Assembly (NCBI GenBank): GCA_021798635.1
Contig: JAJZGH010000119.1
Coordinates: forward strand, 1 to 14,210
Direction: 5' to 3'
Source: Planctomycetota bacterium
GTDB taxonomy: Bacteria > Planctomycetota > Phycisphaerae > WQYP01
DNA: 14,210 nucleotides
Under the pieces are notes generated by a model. That model ran no database searches and was not told where the DNA came from. It was given only the letters and a program-made list of their open reading frames with translations. Both the position numbers and the translations under genes were made by a program. Shown here in pieces: positions 1,530-13,416 of this stretch; the stretch's first letter is position 1, and each line of letters opens with the position of its first letter.

Positions 1530-2189
1530 TCATGTGAATCGCTCGTGGCCCGGTTGGGCGACACGCGGCGTCTGCCTGATTTGTTGCGAACTGCGATCAA
1601 GGGCATGAAAAAGGTATCCGCAGAACATAATGGGCCATGGGCCATCGCCGCTAAGACCCAACGCATCTCGCACGACTGGTCTGTTCAAGAATGGGGACAA
1701 AACTGGGTAAGCTTCCTGGATCATGGATAAATCCACGGCTGGGAGGCGATGCTCGTCAATCAAATGGATATTTGCAAATCTATACGCTTCGAACACGAAC
1801 CCTGCGCAGCTGAACCGCATGCGGGTATATCTGCCGTCGGCCTCTGTTAGCGCGATCGCGTGAGGACATATGCAGTATCCCTGTCCAATGTTCGACCTGA
1901 GCAGCCCCAAAGTCTTAACCGCCTTGTGTTCATTTGCGTGTCGATCAATAAAAGTTCTGATTTTTTGTTGCTCGTCGGCGGTCAGGCCGACGCTGCCGAT
2001 AACCTCTGCGTGCATCAGTCGCCCGCTTGGCAGGGGAGGCCCCATATCGATAACTGCGATGTTGGGTGCTGCGTGCCCTCCCGCGACCTGCGCCAAGCCG
2101 ACGTGTTTAACGAACGGGCTGCCATCGCCGACAACATCGAACAGGGCGGCAACGGCGGGGGCGGAGCTACTTACTCGCGTGACCGGCAT
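1530..2189 (-). CDS. Unknown protein with an NlpC/P60-like Cys motif
   Basis: The product has 219 residues from the ATG at 2189. That start is preferred because GGAGAG lies 11 bases upstream; a GTG at 2228 and an ATG at 2207 are in frame but have poorer ribosome binding sites. The most telling segment is SCAGFVFEAY (127-136), which resembles the catalytic DCSGFVxxxY motif of NlpC/P60 papain-like enzymes, with Cys128 as candidate nucleophile. His110, in CPHAIAL, lies before the Cys, so a circularly permuted order is conceivable. The C-terminal part contains a well-formed GDGPWPIMFCGYLFHAL segment (181-197). There is no signal peptide or membrane segment, so it is probably cytoplasmic. The start overlaps the end of the upstream gene by 23 bases, suggesting translational coupling as the third gene of the operon. 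Enzyme activity is inference from one motif. Confidence 0.6.
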   Translation of the reverse strand: MPVTRVSSSAPAVAALFDVVGDGSPFVKHVGLAQVAGGHAAPNIAVIDMGPPLPSGRLMHAEVIGSVGLTADEQQKIRTFIDRHANEHKAVKTLGLLRSNIGQGYCICPHAIALTEADGRYTRMRFSCAGFVFEAYRFANIHLIDEHRLPAVDLSMIQEAYPVLSPFLNRPVVRDALGLSGDGPWPIMFCGYLFHALDRSSQQIRQTPRVAQPGHERFT

Positions 2190-3213
2190 CTCGCCCGCTC
2201 TCCACATTTCGGTGCCTGCTGAAAACACTCAGGCGGAGCTTAGCCAGCCAGTCGGCGGCCTCGGCATTCCGGCTGCTCCAGCGGCTCCCGAGCTCGTTGA
2301 GATCAGCATTGACGATTTCGCTAAACCAACGGTGCGGAGACCTCATTGCGGAATTCCATGCTTCCACAGCCAGGTCACTGCGCATCGCCACGATGGCCTC
2401 AATCGCCAGCGAGGCACAAGCAGAGTATTTATCGCGCAACAGGAGCCTTGGATTCAGATACGCCTGCGCCATCTGCATGAGATTTGACGCCAAGTGTGAC
2501 CGCACGTTCGCGTGCGTCGGCGGATGGACCTCAAAATTACGGTATACCATCTTGGCTACTTCAAGCTCCAATTCCAAAGGCAGAGGGCTGCGATTTTCCG
2601 GATCCAATAGAGCAGCAAGTGTTTCCATTTTTTCCATGGGCATTATTGCAATGTACTTGCGAATGGCGGAGCCCACCGCGATGAGTTCCCCCGGCGTGGA
2701 GCTGTTGCGATGAGCATGGATATAGCTCCAGAGAATGGGTAACAGGCAATGCTGCTGCTGCAGATCAAATCGTGTAATCTCGGCCTCAATGATATGATTC
2801 GGAGAAATATTTTCCCCTTCGGCGGCGAGAAGGTCTAACAGGCCACCGGGGGTAACTTGCTCGCCCAGGGTATCCACGTCCGACACACCCAATCCCGATT
2901 CGGACACCTGTGGATCGCTGTAAAGATCATCGGCGCGGCATTGGCCGGAAATGAATCTTGATCCATCTTCAGTTTCCAAGGCCGCCTCGAATCGGCCCGT
3001 TGGCTGAATCTCTATCACTCCGCCCGTTACGCTGGAAAGCGTGGCTCTGTTTGCCCGCTTTATTCTCTTCAATGTAGACTTTGCGCCAAAAATTCTTATC
3101 GATTCCGTCACGCACGTATCAATATCCATGGGCCAACTCGCCTGCTTCTCCAAGTATTCAGAGAACCATGACCCTGTTTTTGGGGCTACGTCTGGGTCAA
3201 TTAGCTCGGGCAT
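2167..3213 (-). CDS. Unknown mostly helical protein, second gene of the operon
   Basis: I do not recognise this 348-residue protein. Residues 1-110 are mixed, with a probable beta-rich stretch (TGGVIEIQPTGRFEAAL, near 63-79). From about residue 155 it looks all-alpha: successive amphipathic helices such as LLPILWSYIHAH, LELELEVAKMVYRNF and LLLRDKYSACASLAIEAIVAM suggest a HEAT- or TPR-like scaffold. The C-terminus is basic. No catalytic motif, signal peptide or membrane segment is visible. The start is well supported: AGGAG lies 10 bases before the ATG at 3213. It begins 14 bases after the first gene of the operon and overlaps the third, so the three are almost certainly co-transcribed. Confidence 0.65.
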   Translation of the reverse strand: MPELIDPDVAPKTGSWFSEYLEKQASWPMDIDTCVTESIRIFGAKSTLKRIKRANRATLSSVTGGVIEIQPTGRFEAALETEDGSRFISGQCRADDLYSDPQVSESGLGVSDVDTLGEQVTPGGLLDLLAAEGENISPNHIIEAEITRFDLQQQHCLLPILWSYIHAHRNSSTPGELIAVGSAIRKYIAIMPMEKMETLAALLDPENRSPLPLELELEVAKMVYRNFEVHPPTHANVRSHLASNLMQMAQAYLNPRLLLRDKYSACASLAIEAIVAMRSDLAVEAWNSAMRSPHRWFSEIVNADLNELGSRWSSRNAEAADWLAKLRLSVFSRHRNVESGRDAGHASK

Positions 3214-3227
3214 GGTAATTCAACTCC

Positions 3228-3950
3228 TTACCGCGGTGCTTTGGTTGAAGGAACAGGAATACTCTGACTTTTGAGAAGTTCCTTAACCACGGCGACTTTG
3301 CGTTTTGCGGTTGCAACTGTCTCTTCCAGCCTCGCTATTTGTTCCTCCGACATCCGAAGCTCAAGGACCTCAGATTCGCCACCGGAAGTTGTGTACTCCA
3401 ACCGCAGGATGACGACGGGCAGCGCACCTTCCACGCGCCGGCGGCTAGAGTCGAAAATCGGCCGAATATCGCAAATAATGTTTGCCTGGTCAAGTTCGGC
3501 ACCCGTCGCAGCGGCCAGCTTTTGAGCTTTGAATTGTCGGCCCAGCCCGTTTGGGACAACTGCCAGCCGCCGAAGGCGTTCAACAAGGGTCCTTCTTTCG
3601 TCAGCAGTAAACGGCTTTTCTTCTGCTGTGATTGCCTCGGAAAGAATTCTCATCGCGTCGTCAGCCGGCATGTCGGCGTCATGAAGCACTTCGGAAACTC
3701 GATATATTGCTGCCGCAAGTTTTTCCGCTTCATTTTGACCTGCCAGCACTTGGCTGACGGTCGCGTCCAGTACTTCGCGATTGATAAATGCGTCCGATTT
3801 TTCCAGCGTCCCTGCCAAATGGCGGAATCGGTCCTCATTCAAGCGGACAACCAACTGCATGTCCGCCAGGAAATCCTCATCGCGAACCAGCCGGCTTGCC
3901 AATAACTTAAAAGGCGGGCTGCCAAAAAAGAAGGTGCTTTTGTATCTCAT
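3228..3950 (-). CDS. Unknown protein with a COMM-domain-like C-terminus, first gene of the operon
   Basis: The product has 240 residues from the ATG at 3950, chosen because AGGA sits 8 bases upstream. ATG at 3959 and TTG at 3989 are in-frame alternatives with poorer sites. Residues 1-150 are predicted helical and charged. Residues about 155-225 read as beta strands and a hairpin followed by one long helix: a DIRPIFDSS strand, LPVVILRLEYTT, EVLELRMS, then EEQIARLEETVATAKRKVAVV. The order and hydrophobic spacing resemble the eukaryotic COMM domain, which also follows a helical N-terminal domain, but I have only visual similarity. No enzyme motif, signal peptide or transmembrane helix is seen. 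It heads a three-gene operon and is divergent from the gene at 4151. Confidence 0.6.
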   Translation of the reverse strand: MRYKSTFFFGSPPFKLLASRLVRDEDFLADMQLVVRLNEDRFRHLAGTLEKSDAFINREVLDATVSQVLAGQNEAEKLAAAIYRVSEVLHDADMPADDAMRILSEAITAEEKPFTADERRTLVERLRRLAVVPNGLGRQFKAQKLAAATGAELDQANIICDIRPIFDSSRRRVEGALPVVILRLEYTTSGGESEVLELRMSEEQIARLEETVATAKRKVAVVKELLKSQSIPVPSTKAPR

Positions 3951-4150
3951 ATCCCGCATCCTGACCGCCAAACCGACGTTCCAAGACAATTACTTCCAAT
4001 ACAGTCAATAGCATGGATAAGCCAGTCCTGTCAAGCAGGTGTGGCAAATGTTTTTTTCACTGGGTACACTCCGGTAGTGGTTTGTCCGGGGTTCACCGGC
4101 ATGGGGGCCGGGCCACGGCGGTCGGTATTCTGGTTGCGAGGTTTGGCTCA

Positions 4151-4780
4151 ATGGATGTAGCGACTCACTGGGAATTAAAAATGCCCGCTGATATGGTGCT
4201 GGCATTGCTGGAATGCCGCATTGTGCCTGTAAATCAGCATAGGCTCGTTACGTTGTTATTCGGGATCGCTGCCGAGGAACAGAAGTTGCCCGACACCATG
4301 CGGAGCCTGGTTTGGCTGATCGGGCCAAATGGGGAATCTGAAATCTGGCGACCCGGTAAAGATTATCCGGGTAGCAGCATCTGGTTTGGAGAGCCTGATA
4401 CCGGCATTCTGCTGGGCAATGATTTCCATAAACCTGATGCGGTATACGCGTGCAAACTTGACGGCACCCATATCGCCTCATTCCAACTGCCGCTGTTATG
4501 GGATAGCCCCATTCGACCGTGGCGTTTCAAGGCAACGCAGCAGAGCATTGAATATGTGGACTGCCAAGGCGAATTGCAGCACGCCGCCGACCTCGCAGAA
4601 CTAATTCTCCATGCCAAGGGTACCGCCGATGCAACGACCTCCCGTCTGGCCGCGGACTGGCGTCCCCGGACCTTGCTTTTGCCGACAAATATTCCCGGCG
4701 GCAACGGGATTCTGTTCCGCGTGAGTCGCAATGGCGATCACGTGCGGCTGGATTGCGTCCGAGCAACGCATAGGCTCTAA
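4151..4780 (+). CDS. Uncharacterised protein whose 3' end is duplicated before recN
   Basis: I do not recognise this 209-residue protein. It is soluble-looking and Trp-rich (SLVWLIGPNG, SEIWRPGKDYPGSSIWFGEP, RLAADWRPR), with a probably beta-rich middle and no catalytic signature. I chose the ATG at 4151 because GCGAGG lies about 9 bases upstream. The frame stays open to an ATG at 4013, but the extra 46 residues (Cys-, His- and Gly-rich) do not look like protein and no ribosome binding site supports that start. Its last 45 codons (from 4643) recur as a separate fragment at 6383-6520, with 34 of 45 residues identical. It is divergent from the three-gene operon, and the next gene downstream is the DNA methyltransferase. 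Confidence 0.6.
   Translation: MDVATHWELKMPADMVLALLECRIVPVNQHRLVTLLFGIAAEEQKLPDTMRSLVWLIGPNGESEIWRPGKDYPGSSIWFGEPDTGILLGNDFHKPDAVYACKLDGTHIASFQLPLLWDSPIRPWRFKATQQSIEYVDCQGELQHAADLAELILHAKGTADATTSRLAADWRPRTLLLPTNIPGGNGILFRVSRNGDHVRLDCVRATHRL
4642..4780 (+). repeat. Direct repeat, upstream copy (3' end of the 4151-4780 gene)
   Basis: These 139 bases align without gaps to 6382-6520, at an offset of exactly 1740. I count 116 identical positions (83%), including an unbroken 27-base match at the left end (4642-4668). Similarity collapses immediately to the left and also ends right after the shared TAA stop. Confidence 0.85.
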
Positions 4781-4852
4781 CCTGACTTTCCCTTAGGAGC
4801 CCACCCTGGCGCCTTGCTCGCTTGTGCCGATTTGTGAACGCCCTGAAAACCA

Positions 4853-4882
4853 TTTACGCAGTCGACGTTTTACGGCTATAAT
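4853..4882 (+). promoter_or_regulatory. Promoter of the DNA methyltransferase gene
   Basis: A perfect -10 TATAAT at 4877-4882 follows TTTACG (4853-4858) after 18 bases. Transcription would start near 4889, leaving a leader of about 20 bases that contains AAGAGGAG (4896-4903), a strong ribosome binding site 5 bases before the ATG at 4909. The methyltransferase therefore appears to be expressed independently of the gene upstream. Confidence 0.6.
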
Positions 4883-4908
4883 CCAATTCGCTTTCAAGAG
4901 GAGTCGTA

Positions 4909-5805
4909 ATGACGTTGGCTGCGCCGAAACAGGTAGAAATGGGTAAGCAAAGAGCTTCGGCCGACGGGCCTCTCCACCGGGAAAATGTGACCAACGCCCT
5001 GTTTGAAGGCGATTGCCTATCATTATTGGAACGATTCCCATCACATTGCGTTGATTTGATCCTATGTGATTTGCCCTACGGCACAACACAGAATCCGTGG
5101 GATAGCCCTATTAGTCTCACGGATCTATGGGCCGCGTACCGCCGCGTTCTCAAGCCCTCGGGCACTATCGTATTGACGGCGCAAGGCCTCTTCACCGCCC
5201 GTTTAATGGTTTCAAACGAAAAATGGTTCCGTTACAAACTGGTTTGGGAAAAATCGAAGCCGACAAATTTCCTCAACGCCAGACGCCAGCCGTTGCGAAA
5301 ACATGAGGATATATGCGTTTTCTCACCCAGGCAGGCGGCCTATTTTCCCCAGATGGGGTTGGGCGTTCCGTATGACAAAGGCGTGCGCAAGAACCAGCTC
5401 TCCGGCTCATACGGAGATTTTCTGCCTGCGCGCATCCGCAGCGAGGGGCAGCGATTTCCCACGGACGTAATTTATTTTAAGACCGCTGAAAGTGAGGGGC
5501 AGGTGTGGCATCCCACGCAAAAGCCCGTGGCGCTGGGACAGTACCTGGTCCGCACTTACTCGCGCCCGGGAGAACTCGTGTTGGATAACGCGTTCGGCAG
5601 CGGGAGCTTTCTTGTCGCCGCCCTGTTGGAAGGGCGGCGATTCTGCGGCATTGAGCAGAACGATGAGGCGCAGCTTTTTAAAAAGGCTCACATTGACTAC
5701 ATCACGCTGGCTGCGCAGCGCCTTGGCCAGGCGTGGAATTGCCTTAGCGAGGCGGTCCAGCAGGAACTCAGCGCGATTCAGATATACCGTATGCGACTCG
5801 TGTGA
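4909..5805 (+). CDS. Beta-class site-specific DNA methyltransferase (N6-adenine or N4-cytosine)
   Basis: The 298-residue product has the motif order of the beta group of exocyclic-amino DNA methyltransferases. The catalytic motif comes first, DLPYGTTQ at 54-61 (a DPPY variant), followed by a central target-recognition region. HPTQKP follows at 201-206, then the S-adenosylmethionine-binding LDNAFGSGSF near 226-235. It should methylate an adenine or cytosine amino group in a short sequence that cannot be read from the protein. Its own promoter and strong ribosome binding site precede it. No restriction endonuclease lies beside it: downstream is only a fragment-like specificity gene. It is thus an orphan methylase, or the surviving half of a restriction-modification system, lying between two copies of a direct repeat. 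The DNPPY-like Asp54-Tyr57 core is intact, so activity is plausible. Confidence 0.88.
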   Translation: MTLAAPKQVEMGKQRASADGPLHRENVTNALFEGDCLSLLERFPSHCVDLILCDLPYGTTQNPWDSPISLTDLWAAYRRVLKPSGTIVLTAQGLFTARLMVSNEKWFRYKLVWEKSKPTNFLNARRQPLRKHEDICVFSPRQAAYFPQMGLGVPYDKGVRKNQLSGSYGDFLPARIRSEGQRFPTDVIYFKTAESEGQVWHPTQKPVALGQYLVRTYSRPGELVLDNAFGSGSFLVAALLEGRRFCGIEQNDEAQLFKKAHIDYITLAAQRLGQAWNCLSEAVQQELSAIQIYRMRLV

Positions 5806-5839
5806 AATCGAACATCCGTTTGCACGTGAGTAGTACGAA

Positions 5840-6328
5840 ATGAAAGCATCTTCACTCGCGGATTTTGCAATCCCCATTAACCCCGACGCTCGGCTTTGCG
5901 TGTTCCGGCTGAAAGAACAGGCATTTGTCAATCAGCGATTCATCCGGCTTACGCTCCGCGAGCCTCCACATACTGACGCTGAACTCGTACACGCGCTCTT
6001 GAATTCTACCTTGGGAATGTTCCTGATCGAAGCTGCTGGGTTCGGCCGCGGGTTAGGAGTCTTAGACCTTAACGCAACCAAGTTATCGAAAACCTTTCAT
6101 ATGCTGAATCCCGATAGACCCGATGCAGCGGCTGCCGCCAGAATAAAAACATATTTCCGCCCGTTGCTTGCGCGCAGTATAAGAGAATTACCGAAAGAGA
6201 TTGCCTGCCCGGACCGGCTGGATTTTGATAGCTGTATAGCTGAGGTTTATGGATTTGTGGGTCTGGAACAAGGCATCCGGGAGGGAGCCGAATTTCTTTA
6301 TAAAATCCGTAAATCCGCGAAGGACTAA
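5840..6328 (+). pseudogene. C-terminal remnant of an Eco57I/TaqI-like adenine methylase
   Basis: The frame encodes 162 residues. NQRFIRLTLREP, ALLNSTLGMFLIEAAGFGRGLGVLDLNATKLSKTF and the following MLNPD (split here only for description) match the pattern of the C-terminal target-recognition part of large Eco57I-like N6-adenine methylases: lnStl, then a Gly-rich GFGRGLG, then an LDLNATK-type stretch leading to a (V/L)NP. The catalytic N-terminus (SAM motif and NPPY) is absent. The frame begins directly after an in-frame TAG (5831-5833), with no good ribosome binding site, 34 bases after the preceding methyltransferase. I read it as a truncated relic. A stand-alone specificity protein working with the neighbouring methylase is the alternative, since the frame itself is unbroken. 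Confidence 0.5.
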
Positions 6329-6381
6329 TCGACCATCATCCGGCCCCCCGATAGCGTCTGCTTAAGGAAATGCAGAAGTGG

Positions 6382-6520
6382 CCGTCTGGCCGCGGACTGG
6401 CGTCCCCGCGCCCCGCTTCTGCCCGCAAATATTCCCGGCGGAGGCGGGACTCTGTTCCGCTTGACTCGCAATGAAGACCACCTGCGACTGGATTGCGTCC
6501 GGGCAGCTCATATACTCTAA
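6382..6520 (+). repeat. Direct repeat, downstream copy (before recN)
   Basis: This is the partner of 4642-4780 at a constant offset of 1740 bases, with 116 of 139 positions identical and no gaps. The pair brackets the methyltransferase and the specificity fragment. Confidence 0.85.
6383..6520 (+). pseudogene. 3' fragment of a homologue of the 4151-4780 gene
   Basis: Translating from 6383 gives RLAADWRPRAPLLPANIPGG and continues to a TAA at 6518-6520. This aligns residue for residue with the last 45 residues of the 4151-4780 product (34 identical). Substitutions such as V/L, S/T and L/V are conservative and several base changes are silent, so the copy diverged while still coding. The rest of the gene is missing: homology stops sharply at 6382, just after a small hairpin (TCTGC 6357-6361, GCAGA 6372-6376). 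No start codon serves the fragment. It ends 52 bases before recN. Confidence 0.75.
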
Positions 6521-6572: not shown

Positions 6573-8384
6573 ATGCTGCGTGAACTGCATATTTCTAATT
6601 TGGCCGTTATTGCGGATGCGGCGGTTGAATTTGACGCGGGCTTGAACTGCTTTACGGGACAGACCGGAGCGGGAAAGTCGTTGGTGCTGGGGGCGTTGGA
6701 ACTGCTGCTGGCGTTGCGGTCGGGGCAGAATATGCTGCGGGCCGGGGCTAGCGAGGCGCGCATTACCGGTGTATTTGTTATTCAAAACGCTGCCCTGCGC
6801 CGCCGCCTGGCGGAGATAACCGATCTGCCTTTGGCGGACGAACCGGAAATTATTCTCGTCCGGCGAATTCATGAATCAGGCCGCACCACGGCTTCACTTA
6901 ACGGCCAGCCGCTCACGGGATCCATGCTCAAAGACATTGCTGAGACGCTGGTGGATATTCACGGCCAGCATGACGCCCAATACCTGCTTAAGCCCGCCAA
7001 CCAACTGACCTTGCTTGATGACGCCGGGCATCTTAGTGCGCTGGCTGAAGAATTTCGCACGCTGCATCAGCAGCGACGGGAACTGATGATCCAATCGCGG
7101 GAACTTAGCGCCTCACAAACCTTGCGCAAGCAACAGATGGAGCTTTATGAATTTCAATTGCGGGAAATGGAGGATGCCAGTCCGCAGGCGGGAGAATTAG
7201 AGGTACTGGAAGCGCGGCACCGACTGTTAAGCAATATCGAAAAAATTAAACGCCTCGGCGGCAGCGCGTATGAAGCACTCTATGAAGATGACGCCGCCAT
7301 TATAGGTCGATTGAAATCCGTTACTGCGGTTCTCCTGGAGGCGGCGGAATTAAATCCGGATTTTATCGCCGCCGCCGGACAGGTAAAAGATTCCACGATC
7401 GCACTGGATGATGCGGCATTTACTTTACGCCGCACGCTGGATCACCTGGAGTTGGACCCCGAAGAGCTCGCGAGCGTATCCGATCGGCTTAATACACTTA
7501 ATCGGTTGATCAGCAAATATTGCGGCCACGGCGGCGGCTTGGACCAGTTACTGGAGTATCAGGAAAGCATCAAAGAGCAGTTGACGCAATTGAAATCCGC
7601 CGATCAAAACTCGGTCGATTGCGATGCACGCATTGCAGAGTTGGAGAAGCAGTTATTAGCTGTTGGGGCCAAACTATCGCAGGGGCGAAGAAATGCCGCG
7701 CAGATTGTTACACCTGGAGTGCATCAGCAATTGGCTGATTTGGGAATGAAGGAGGCCCGGTTTCACATCGAATTTTTGCCCGTGCCGGCCGCAGGCGAAA
7801 CAAAGGGCTATCCGGATGATCCATTTGCTTCGCCCAGCGGAATGGAGACGGTGGAATTTATGCTGGCACCCAATCCAGGGCAGCCAGGGCGGCCCTTGCG
7901 CAAAATCGCCAGTGGCGGAGAACTATCGCGCGTGATGCTGGCGGTGAAGTCTATTTTGGCGGCCTCCGACCGGGTCAGCGTGCTGGTATTTGATGAAATT
8001 GACGCCAATGTCGGCGGACGGATGGGGACGATCATCGGTGAAAAATTACGCGATATCGCAGGGCGGCACCAAGTTCTGTGTATCACGCATTTGCCGCAGA
8101 TAGCGGCGTATGCGGATCGACATATCAGTATTAAAAAAGTTGTGCGCGATGGGGAAAGTTTTACTTCCGTGAGCGCTCTTTCGGGCCAAGTGCGTCTGGA
8201 GGAACTGGCGGAAATGATTACCGGGAAAAATATTACTCCCACATCCCTGGCCCAGGCGCAGGAACTTCTGGCATTGGCCGTTAGAAAAGCCGAGCCTGAA
8301 TCGCCTGCGGCACGGCAAACAGAGTCCAAGCGCGGCAAGGCGAAAAGTCCGGCCTCATCTCGAAAAAGCCTGACGGAGAAATAA
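6573..8384 (+). CDS. recN: DNA repair protein RecN
   Basis: RecN is an SMC-like ATPase that acts in recombinational repair of double-strand breaks. The 603-residue product shows the full layout. The N-terminus is MLRELHISNLAVI, typical of RecN, followed by Walker A GQTGAGKS (29-36) and a Q-loop region with DIHGQHDAQYLL near 128-139. A central charged coiled-coil section covers roughly residues 150-400. The ABC signature SGGELSR is at 447-453 and Walker B VLVFDEID at 470-477, followed by DANVGGRMG (family usual D-T-G-V-S-G) and the CITHLPQIAAYAD switch region. A Lys/Ser-rich tail of about 35 residues makes it slightly longer than the usual 550-570. The ATG at 6573 has GAGGTAG about 11 bases upstream, and TAGAAT at 6533-6538 could be a -10. 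No LexA-type box was recognised. The gene is followed at once by the MATE exporter gene. Confidence 0.96.
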   Translation: MLRELHISNLAVIADAAVEFDAGLNCFTGQTGAGKSLVLGALELLLALRSGQNMLRAGASEARITGVFVIQNAALRRRLAEITDLPLADEPEIILVRRIHESGRTTASLNGQPLTGSMLKDIAETLVDIHGQHDAQYLLKPANQLTLLDDAGHLSALAEEFRTLHQQRRELMIQSRELSASQTLRKQQMELYEFQLREMEDASPQAGELEVLEARHRLLSNIEKIKRLGGSAYEALYEDDAAIIGRLKSVTAVLLEAAELNPDFIAAAGQVKDSTIALDDAAFTLRRTLDHLELDPEELASVSDRLNTLNRLISKYCGHGGGLDQLLEYQESIKEQLTQLKSADQNSVDCDARIAELEKQLLAVGAKLSQGRRNAAQIVTPGVHQQLADLGMKEARFHIEFLPVPAAGETKGYPDDPFASPSGMETVEFMLAPNPGQPGRPLRKIASGGELSRVMLAVKSILAASDRVSVLVFDEIDANVGGRMGTIIGEKLRDIAGRHQVLCITHLPQIAAYADRHISIKKVVRDGESFTSVSALSGQVRLEELAEMITGKNITPTSLAQAQELLALAVRKAEPESPAARQTESKRGKAKSPASSRKSLTEK

Positions 8385-12342: not shown

Positions 12343-13416
12343 ATGCTTATCTCACCATCGGGCAATTTTGGAACAACCAGCGGGCACAAACTTTTGGCGG
12401 CATCCGCGATGATGTTGATGGCCGCAGGTGCCATCAACAGTTCAGTGGGCGCTATGACCATCACGCCACATTTTGAAAGCTCCATTACCGGAAGCGCCAG
12501 CTACAGCACCATCGCCTCGGATATCAATAGCGCGCTGACATTTTATAACCAGAACATCCTTAATAACGTCAATGTAAGCATCGATTTTGCCGTTACCCCG
12601 ACTACTTCCAGCGCTTCGTATCTTGGTCAAAGCAACAGCACTATTTATACTCCGTCGTACAGCACCTACACTTCCGCCATGCAGACCAATGCGATCCAAA
12701 ATAGCAACGCCATCGAACTGACCGCTTACAATAATCTGCAATATGGCAATGACAGCAACGGGGCGAAAAACATTGACGCCACGGCACCGGATATGCGGGC
12801 TCTTACCGGCTCGTCCGCCTACACGGGTGGCTACAATACCAACGGAAGCTATGTCGGAAGTTCGGGAACGATTGATGGCGTGATCACGCTTAATGCGGCG
12901 GACCTTTCCGGTTTCGGCGGCGGTGGAAATTTCAGTCCCGGTCGTGTCATTCAACATGAAGTCGATGAAGTTCTCGGCATCGGTGGCGGCGGATCAACTC
13001 TGACGAGTTCCACAACCTCGGCCACCGCCTATGGCCCGATGGATCTGTTTCGTTACTCCGCGCTCCATACGCCAAGCTATACCAACAGCTCCACCGCCAC
13101 GTCCTATTTCTCCATTGACGGCGGCACGGTAAATTTGGTGAATTTCAACCAGAACCCCGGTACCAATAGCCAGACCGGAGGCGACTTCGGCGACTGGAGC
13201 AGCGAAGGCACTACGGGTAACTATGTTCAATTGGCATTTACATCAAGCTCGCAAGGGGCGGCCAGCGTCAGCCCGACATCGCCAGAGGGGATTGCACTGC
13301 AAGCCGTGGGTTATGACATGGCGGTTCCTGAGCCATCAACCTTGGCCCTCTGCGGTGGATTGCTTTTCGGCCTGGGCCTGATGCGCCGCCGCGCCGCTCG
13401 GAGCCCTTCGCAGTAA
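12343..13416 (+). CDS. Exported PEP-CTERM protein, putative metalloprotease (NF038122-like)
   Basis: The 357-residue product has an N-terminal signal peptide (His15-Lys16, then LLAASAMMLMAAGAINSSVG) and a C-terminal PEP-CTERM sorting signal. The latter consists of VPEPSTLALCGGL from 328, a hydrophobic helix and the basic tail MRRRAARSPSQ; the exosortase system would process it. Between them lies a Ser/Thr/Asn/Gly-rich domain with HEVDEVLGIG at 205-214, an HExxE motif rather than HExxH. PMDLFRYSA (232-240), YFSIDGG (255-261) and GGDFGDW (279-285) follow. This set of segments is what I recall from the NF038122 PEP-CTERM metalloprotease family; protease activity is inferred. GAAAGGG lies 7 bases before the ATG. 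Low-complexity composition fits a cell-surface or matrix protein. Confidence 0.82.
   Translation: MLISPSGNFGTTSGHKLLAASAMMLMAAGAINSSVGAMTITPHFESSITGSASYSTIASDINSALTFYNQNILNNVNVSIDFAVTPTTSSASYLGQSNSTIYTPSYSTYTSAMQTNAIQNSNAIELTAYNNLQYGNDSNGAKNIDATAPDMRALTGSSAYTGGYNTNGSYVGSSGTIDGVITLNAADLSGFGGGGNFSPGRVIQHEVDEVLGIGGGGSTLTSSTTSATAYGPMDLFRYSALHTPSYTNSSTATSYFSIDGGTVNLVNFNQNPGTNSQTGGDFGDWSSEGTTGNYVQLAFTSSSQGAASVSPTSPEGIALQAVGYDMAVPEPSTLALCGGLLFGLGLMRRRAARSPSQ

Follow-up and report, generated by a model that had tools for sequence, protein, structure and literature searches.

A Type IIG restriction-modification unit between ORF1 and recN in Planctomycetota, and the diverged copies of a gene end that flank it

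Introduction

To our knowledge, it is not settled how restriction systems without a transposase of their own come to occupy one chromosomal site in several strains. Nobusato et al. 2000 reportedly described the insertion of restriction-modification (RM) units with long target duplication. Excerpts of two papers describe RM units with direct target repeats on both sides (PMC3031569, PMC4978471), and an excerpt of a third presents site 39 of Streptococcus suis, a variable defence locus that holds different cargo between the same two conserved genes (PMC5398294).

We analysed a stretch of 14,210 nt (the window) on the forward strand of contig JAJZGH010000119.1 (GCA_021798635.1), from a Planctomycetota bacterium (Phycisphaerae; WQYP01). 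Just before recN, the window carries a methyltransferase gene and a broken gene, bracketed by two diverged copies of the 3' end of an upstream gene, ORF1. How did the enclosed unit reach this spot, and where did the second gene end come from? Among the matches listed in a literature search, considered by title and start of abstract, no publication dealt with the ORF1-recN locus. A first-pass annotation, made from the letters of the window, had proposed the import of a related strain's gene together with an RM module.

Results

A repeat of the ORF1 end before recN

The two copies of the ORF1 end agree at 116 of 139 bases without a gap (Table 1). The next-best ungapped plus-strand placement in the window reached 59 of 139 and the maximum over 20 base-shuffled windows was 60 of 139; thus, the repeat is not due to chance. 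It comprises the last 46 codons of ORF1, stop included, with both copies in the same frame and an equivalent TAA closing each (4778-4780 on the left, 6518-6520 on the right). The right copy has no 5' part, and 52 bp separate its stop from the start of recN. In all these respects the first-pass annotation, which had described a 139-base repeat ending at equivalent stops just before recN, was accurate. Its description of the protein changes as conservative is only loosely right, because the 23 differences fall in 18 of the 46 codons, 7 silent and 11 non-silent. An Rfam scan of the window at the gathering threshold matched no RNA feature.

Table 1. Features of the window around the inserted module
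Feature	Position	Strand	Remarks
ORF1, 209 aa	4151..4780	+	Open frame begins at 4013; ancestral neighbour of recN on its upstream side
Left repeat copy (ORF1 3' end)	4642..4780	+	116/139 identity to right copy
M1 upstream region, TATAAT at 4877-4882	4852..4908	+	Left edge of conserved module; similarity to L074 and L077 by eye
M1, N6/N4 DNA methyltransferase, 298 aa	4909..5805	+	PF01555 at residues 48-254, E 1.4e-25
Leftover middle piece of Type IIG gene	5790..5832	+	Matches L003 3601-3645; between two deletions
Type IIG C-terminal remnant	5833..6328	+	162-aa ORF from 5840; PADLOC PDLC03606 E 3.4e-39
53-bp spacer joining module to right copy	6329..6381	+	Core in G003 and G004
Right copy, 3' end of an ORF1 allele	6382..6520	+	In frame to stop, without 5' part
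recN	6573..8384	+	Right flank of insertion; SMC_N and AAA_23 matches; name from the first-pass annotation

A protein search with ORF1 returned 14 proteins, its own included, and a profile search that scored 8000 candidates listed the same 14. No family in Pfam, PADLOC or NCBIfam matched ORF1, nor did any PDB sequence; its AlphaFold model (mean pLDDT 73) consists mostly of strands, and the best matches of this model to PDB folds were weak (E 0.013 and worse). Matches to ORF1 were found in 15 of 150 relatives of one genome, G003 (five close and ten distant), and no second full copy was among the matches listed in that search. Full-length ORF1 is present as one copy each in five of the six relatives' genomes, counted as genomes with matches. 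We rejected the possibility, raised in the first-pass annotation, that the shared segment is a common C-terminal domain of unrelated genes: its eight matches in six relatives' genomes all lie at the recN locus or can be assigned to it.

The enclosed module is the remnant of a Type IIG system

A scan with recN returned seven loci. Six are recN relatives found in MAGs of Planctomycetota or Phycisphaerales, with 79-94% protein identity of recN; the seventh (L007) is a match of 26 residues only. In G003 (locus L003), a 330-aa M1 and a 924-aa Type IIG enzyme come after ORF1, and the enzyme matches PDLC03606 with E 8.6e-231 over residues 17-923 of 924. This enzyme carries an N6_Mtase domain at residues 338-574, also found in the G002 enzyme, and an N-terminal nuclease motif recognized by eye only. 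The same pair occurs in G002 (L002) and G001 (L026), where the Type IIG enzyme is 91% identical, and the order ORF1-M1-IIG is intact in all three relatives. M1 overlaps the Type IIG gene from upstream in G003 and G002. With its near-full-length match and this overlapping M1, the G003 form resembles the known combination of a Type IIG enzyme with a separate methyltransferase (PDLC03606 + MTase_II), which we take to be Eco57I-like. Judged by its sequence, the intact form is a Type IIG RM system, with predicted nuclease, methyltransferase and specificity parts in one polypeptide.

The window differs from this system in that only the C-terminal end of the enzyme, a short middle piece and M1 are left. 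The enclosed methyltransferase (4909-5805) and broken gene (5840-6328) of the first-pass annotation are both real, and the broken gene proves to be the Type IIG C-terminal end. It covers positions 774-932 of the 935 in PDLC03606, so the RM polypeptide is not complete in the window, and it shares 93.5% DNA identity with L003. Relative to L003, the window lacks 1766-3600 and 3646-4049; these two deletions, about 2.2 kb together, removed most of the Type IIG enzyme and the last 36 residues of the relatives' 330-aa M1. A protein on a separate 4232-bp contig (P0015) has the same 162-residue form and shares 99% identity with the remnant. This speaks against a local assembly error as the source of the truncation, although the short form of P0015 could also come from a contig edge. 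The window M1 is 97% identical to that of G003 over 294 residues, and its PF01555 match (91 bits against a cut-off of 26.7; profile positions 1-215 of 221) spans a complete catalytic domain. M1 is probably now a solitary methyltransferase whose Type IIG partner is largely deleted, and it may still methylate DNA.

The Type IIG protein is patchily distributed: of 397 genomes, 61 have a match with E 0.001 or better, in many of them confined to the shared methyltransferase domain. From the best non-local Type IIG loci, seven were fetched with 10-14 kb each. M1 lies directly before the Type IIG gene in all seven, and none has a match to ORF1 or recN in the 10-14 kb fetched. When the window is compared by eye with two loci, L074 and L077, similarity starts near the TATAAT before M1 and stops near the IIG stop. 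We take these points as the probable edges of the module, and the TATAAT as a putative promoter of M1. In G024 (L077:5260-7846), M1 is followed by a broken Type IIG gene with split frames, one TGA and no match past residue 567; decay of the restriction half is thus not confined to the window.

The module entered between two old neighbours

In another relative, G005, one contig end holds ORF1 and, about 300 bp further on, the start of recN, and the recN contig starts in the same ORF1 end, about 166 bp before recN (both distances counted from the alignment). These two contig ends overlap and differ as two strain variants would. No Type IIG gene was found in G005, and no methyltransferase lies between its ORF1 and recN. 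ORF1 also stands directly before recN, without the module, in five of the ten distant homologues, at gaps of 113, 52, 19, 69 and 19 bp, a range that includes the 52 bp between right copy and recN in the window; in the other five genomes no recN match was found near ORF1 in the 8-11 kb fetched. Since the module-free order occurs both in G005 and in five of ten distant genomes, we take ORF1-recN as the old order and the module as the newcomer. The first-pass annotation had expected relatives with a single ORF1 before recN and no methyltransferase, and these genomes are such relatives; the window's arrangement is not common to all. Insertion of an RM module between ORF1 and recN is therefore well supported and nearly certain.

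The left side of ORF1 varies too, because the window and G004 have two minus-strand genes there (2167-3213 and 3228-3989) where G003 keeps only an 80-bp remnant of the 2167-3213 gene (L008:1219-1298). Next to this remnant lies a segment that G002 has as well and that by eye resembles purL.

The junction is shared by three genomes, but the right copies are not alike

Among the six relatives' genomes, the core of the spacer was found only in G003 and G004, with up to 3 mismatches allowed. The order of IIG stop, 53-bp spacer and ORF1 end is common to these two genomes and the window, the spacer being 98.2% identical between window and G003 and 85-87% identical with G004. The G004 contig starts at the IIG stop codon, and no Type IIG gene was found in that assembly; the putative module of G004 is thus read from the spacer at this contig start. 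Because G003 and G004 share the junction with a homologous spacer, the joining event appears to predate the window strain. The import of a related strain's gene with an RM module, as first proposed, therefore holds in part: the module did enter between ORF1 and recN, but the joining is not specific to the window, and the two copies do not fall into two clean lineages.

In G001 and G002 the module is present and the right copy is absent, with other sequence in its place. The two replacing stretches (L026:14690-15312 in G001 and L002:7471-7930 in G002) differ from each other, their shared sequence being limited to about 38 bp that follow the IIG stop; in the G002 stretch, a Fic-like_C match is weak and stays under the cut-off (E 2.7e-4). 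Between right copy and recN, G003 encodes a long tandem-repeat protein of 965 aa (L003:4939-7836) with a PEP-CTERM end (above the cut-off in NCBIfam, below it in Pfam), and G004 a 1631-aa relative of this protein (L004:397-5292); the window has no long repeat gene at this position. Elsewhere in the window, 12343-13416 encodes a predicted protein that closes with VPEPSTLALCGGLLFGLGLMRRR and a short tail and by eye resembles a PEP-CTERM surface protein.

Beside spacers that are 85-98% alike, the right copies of the window, G003 and G004 are only 66-77% alike. Between window and G003, identity is 93.5% in the IIG end, 91.7% in recN, 97.7% in the pre-recN stretch, 90.4% in the left ORF1 end and 65.7% in the right copy. 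The 48 mismatches in 140 positions of these two right copies exceed the 16.6% divergence of third positions (P about 3e-7), whereas window and G004 show no excess by the same check (P 0.93). All three right copies are free of stops over 42 codons and align without gaps.

These comparisons bear on the possibility that a single insertion duplicated the ORF1 end and that the copies, identical at first, then drifted apart, the right one as a pseudogene. Such an event has precedent, as excerpts of published work describe RM units with long flanking direct repeats (PMC3031569, PMC4978471). It would also suit the junction common to three genomes, the good match of the first bases of the right copies to the left copies, and a window-G004 divergence no higher than the neutral expectation. 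Yet the window and G003 right copies differ by 34% next to a spacer that differs by 2% and neighbouring third positions that differ by about 16%, and drift would not readily leave three copies open over 42 codons and free of gaps. We therefore consider this account a real but clearly lesser possibility; a long target duplication may have produced the first junction, but by itself it does not account for the difference between window and G003.

Mosaic signals in ORF1 and in the right copies

Mismatches between the left and right copies of one genome are concentrated away from the junction. G004 has 5 in the 79 positions near the junction and then 18 in 56 (0 of 2000 shuffles as clustered), G003 has 4 in 49 and then 35 in 86 (4 of 2000), and the window has 0 in 27 and then 23 in 108 (102 of 2000, a borderline result). 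Of ten left-left control pairs only window-G003 clusters (19 of 2000), the nine others giving at least 160 of 2000. Among the other pairs with a right copy, 8 of 15 also cluster (100 of 2000 or fewer), so that clustering is not confined to a genome's own left/right pair; 6 of these 8 break at base 120, in the variable tail. The start of the right copy is nearest to the genome's own left copy in G004 (5 mismatches in 76; next best 8) and in the window (0 in 27; next best 1). For the start of the G003 right copy, the window's left copy is the closest (4 in 50) and the left copy of G003 itself comes second (5).

Breakpoints also appear within ORF1 itself. At about 4563, G003 changes from resembling G004 (37 of 59 informative sites before) to resembling the window (27 of 31 after), and at about 4618, G004 changes from resembling G003 (39 of 54 before) to resembling the window (17 of 19 after); 0 of 5000 shuffles matched either. 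Four other ORF1 triplets gave 10, 146, 341 and 963 of 5000. Recombination within ORF1 and a mosaic make-up of the right copies are thus indicated by these statistics. By eye, the first half of the ORF1 relative P0009 resembles P0005/P0006, whereas the last third is more like P0010, which hints at further exchange in the 3' part of the gene.

Over residues 10-41, the right copy of the window is nearest to P0003/P0004 (25 of 32 residues; its own P0001, 23), that of G003 to P0006 (26; next 23) and that of G004 to P0001 (25; next 24), all by small margins. In the ORF1 DNA fetched, no donor allele was found for any right copy. In the C-terminal tree suggested by the first-pass annotation, 5 of 7 inner branches are unresolved, the sequences being short; constraining the right copies to one clade in this short tree gave p-AU 0.051, and protein and DNA trees of the short ORF1 ends are likewise mostly unresolved. 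Left/right dN/dS, considered as a sign that the right copy was once selected as a working gene, is 0.48 (window), 0.26 (G003) and 1.04 (G004), as against 0.19-0.45 in ten left-left pairs, and does not establish such a past. Overall, the right copies do not look like simple inherited duplicates.

An older duplication could be imagined instead, in which ORF1 was duplicated in tandem, the second gene was truncated and the module later landed between the two. The right copy does keep its frame up to a stop of its own, and its spacing from recN looks ancestral. However, no examined genome has two full ORF1 copies among the matches listed, the right copies do not group in the tree (a weak result), and in three genomes the truncation falls exactly where the module is joined. 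We regard such a history as improbable.

A gene end restored on one side of an insert, with a spare end on the other, is the layout left by integrases that act at gene ends. The ORF1 locus resembles such products, and in the window 27 identical bases lie at the junction, as might be seen if a site-specific recombinase island had used the ORF1 3' end as its attachment site and displaced the original end to the right. But M1 and the IIG gene fill nearly the whole module in the window, G003 and G002, and no recombinase family matched the module proteins scanned by family search. Module copies elsewhere carry no ORF1 end in the fetched DNA, and G001 and G002 have no right copy. Such an island is thus very unlikely to be the source of the repeat.

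Discussion

The reading that we prefer, though we would put its chance of being correct at no better than even, is that a Type IIG unit inserted before recN and that strains then exchanged it by homologous recombination through ORF1, which made the right copies mosaic. An RM unit made of M1 and a fused nuclease-methyltransferase entered between ORF1 and recN, and the 53-bp spacer links its right end to a second ORF1 3' end. Strains would then pass on or exchange the unit by homologous recombination, one crossover falling in or before ORF1 and the other within the right copy. Where the recipient had an ORF1 of its own before recN, it would acquire the donor's ORF1 together with the module, and its new right copy would start as the donor's and continue as the end of the recipient's old ORF1. 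In the window strain, the Type IIG gene has lost about 2.2 kb in two deletions. Allelic exchange of this kind seems to us the simplest account of the right copies, in which the right copy would act as a homology arm and the transfer would run from donor to recipient as outlined. Against it stand the borderline mosaic signal of the window's own pair, the clustering in other pairs, the closeness of the G003 right-copy start to the window's left copy, the lack of excess divergence between the window and G004 right copies, the weak C-terminal trees, and the modules of G001 and G002 that have no right copy. The left ORF1, M1, IIG end and recN all place G003 nearest to the window, and the gene after recN is slightly nearer in G001/G002; the G003 ranking fits vertical descent as well as transfer.

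RM units with target repeats, and loci at which defence genes are swapped, are already known; what is informative here is the junction at ORF1-recN. As in RM insertion with long target duplication, an RM unit lies between two direct copies (139 bp) of a chromosomal segment, and this segment is single in the unit-free G005, as expected of the window's empty site. The locus differs from that model in that the window copies disagree at 23 of 139 positions, the allele type varies between strains, and no strain here has a fresh, identical repeat pair. Like site 39 of S. suis, as far as the excerpt of that study describes it (PMC5398294), the locus has two fixed, conserved neighbour genes and cargo that varies among related strains. 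Unlike site 39 as presented there, it holds one RM type at varied stages of decay, along with a PEP-CTERM repeat gene and other fragments, and a gene-end repeat marks the junction.

More tentatively, the module may carry its own right-hand homology arm, taken from the end of the neighbouring gene, and each right copy may record the ORF1 allele that its recipient lost; we hold this as a conjecture, more doubtful than the exchange itself. A module with its own arm could be acquired by plain homologous recombination in any strain with the ORF1-recN order. Within a small group of Planctomycetota known from MAGs only, the locus occurs empty, with an intact module or with a decayed one, and its junction repeats vary; because these forms coexist here, the homologous-recombination route can be tested in more strains. 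If the proposal is true, it would provide a recombinase-free route for the spread of defence genes, and past transfers would be readable from the right copies.
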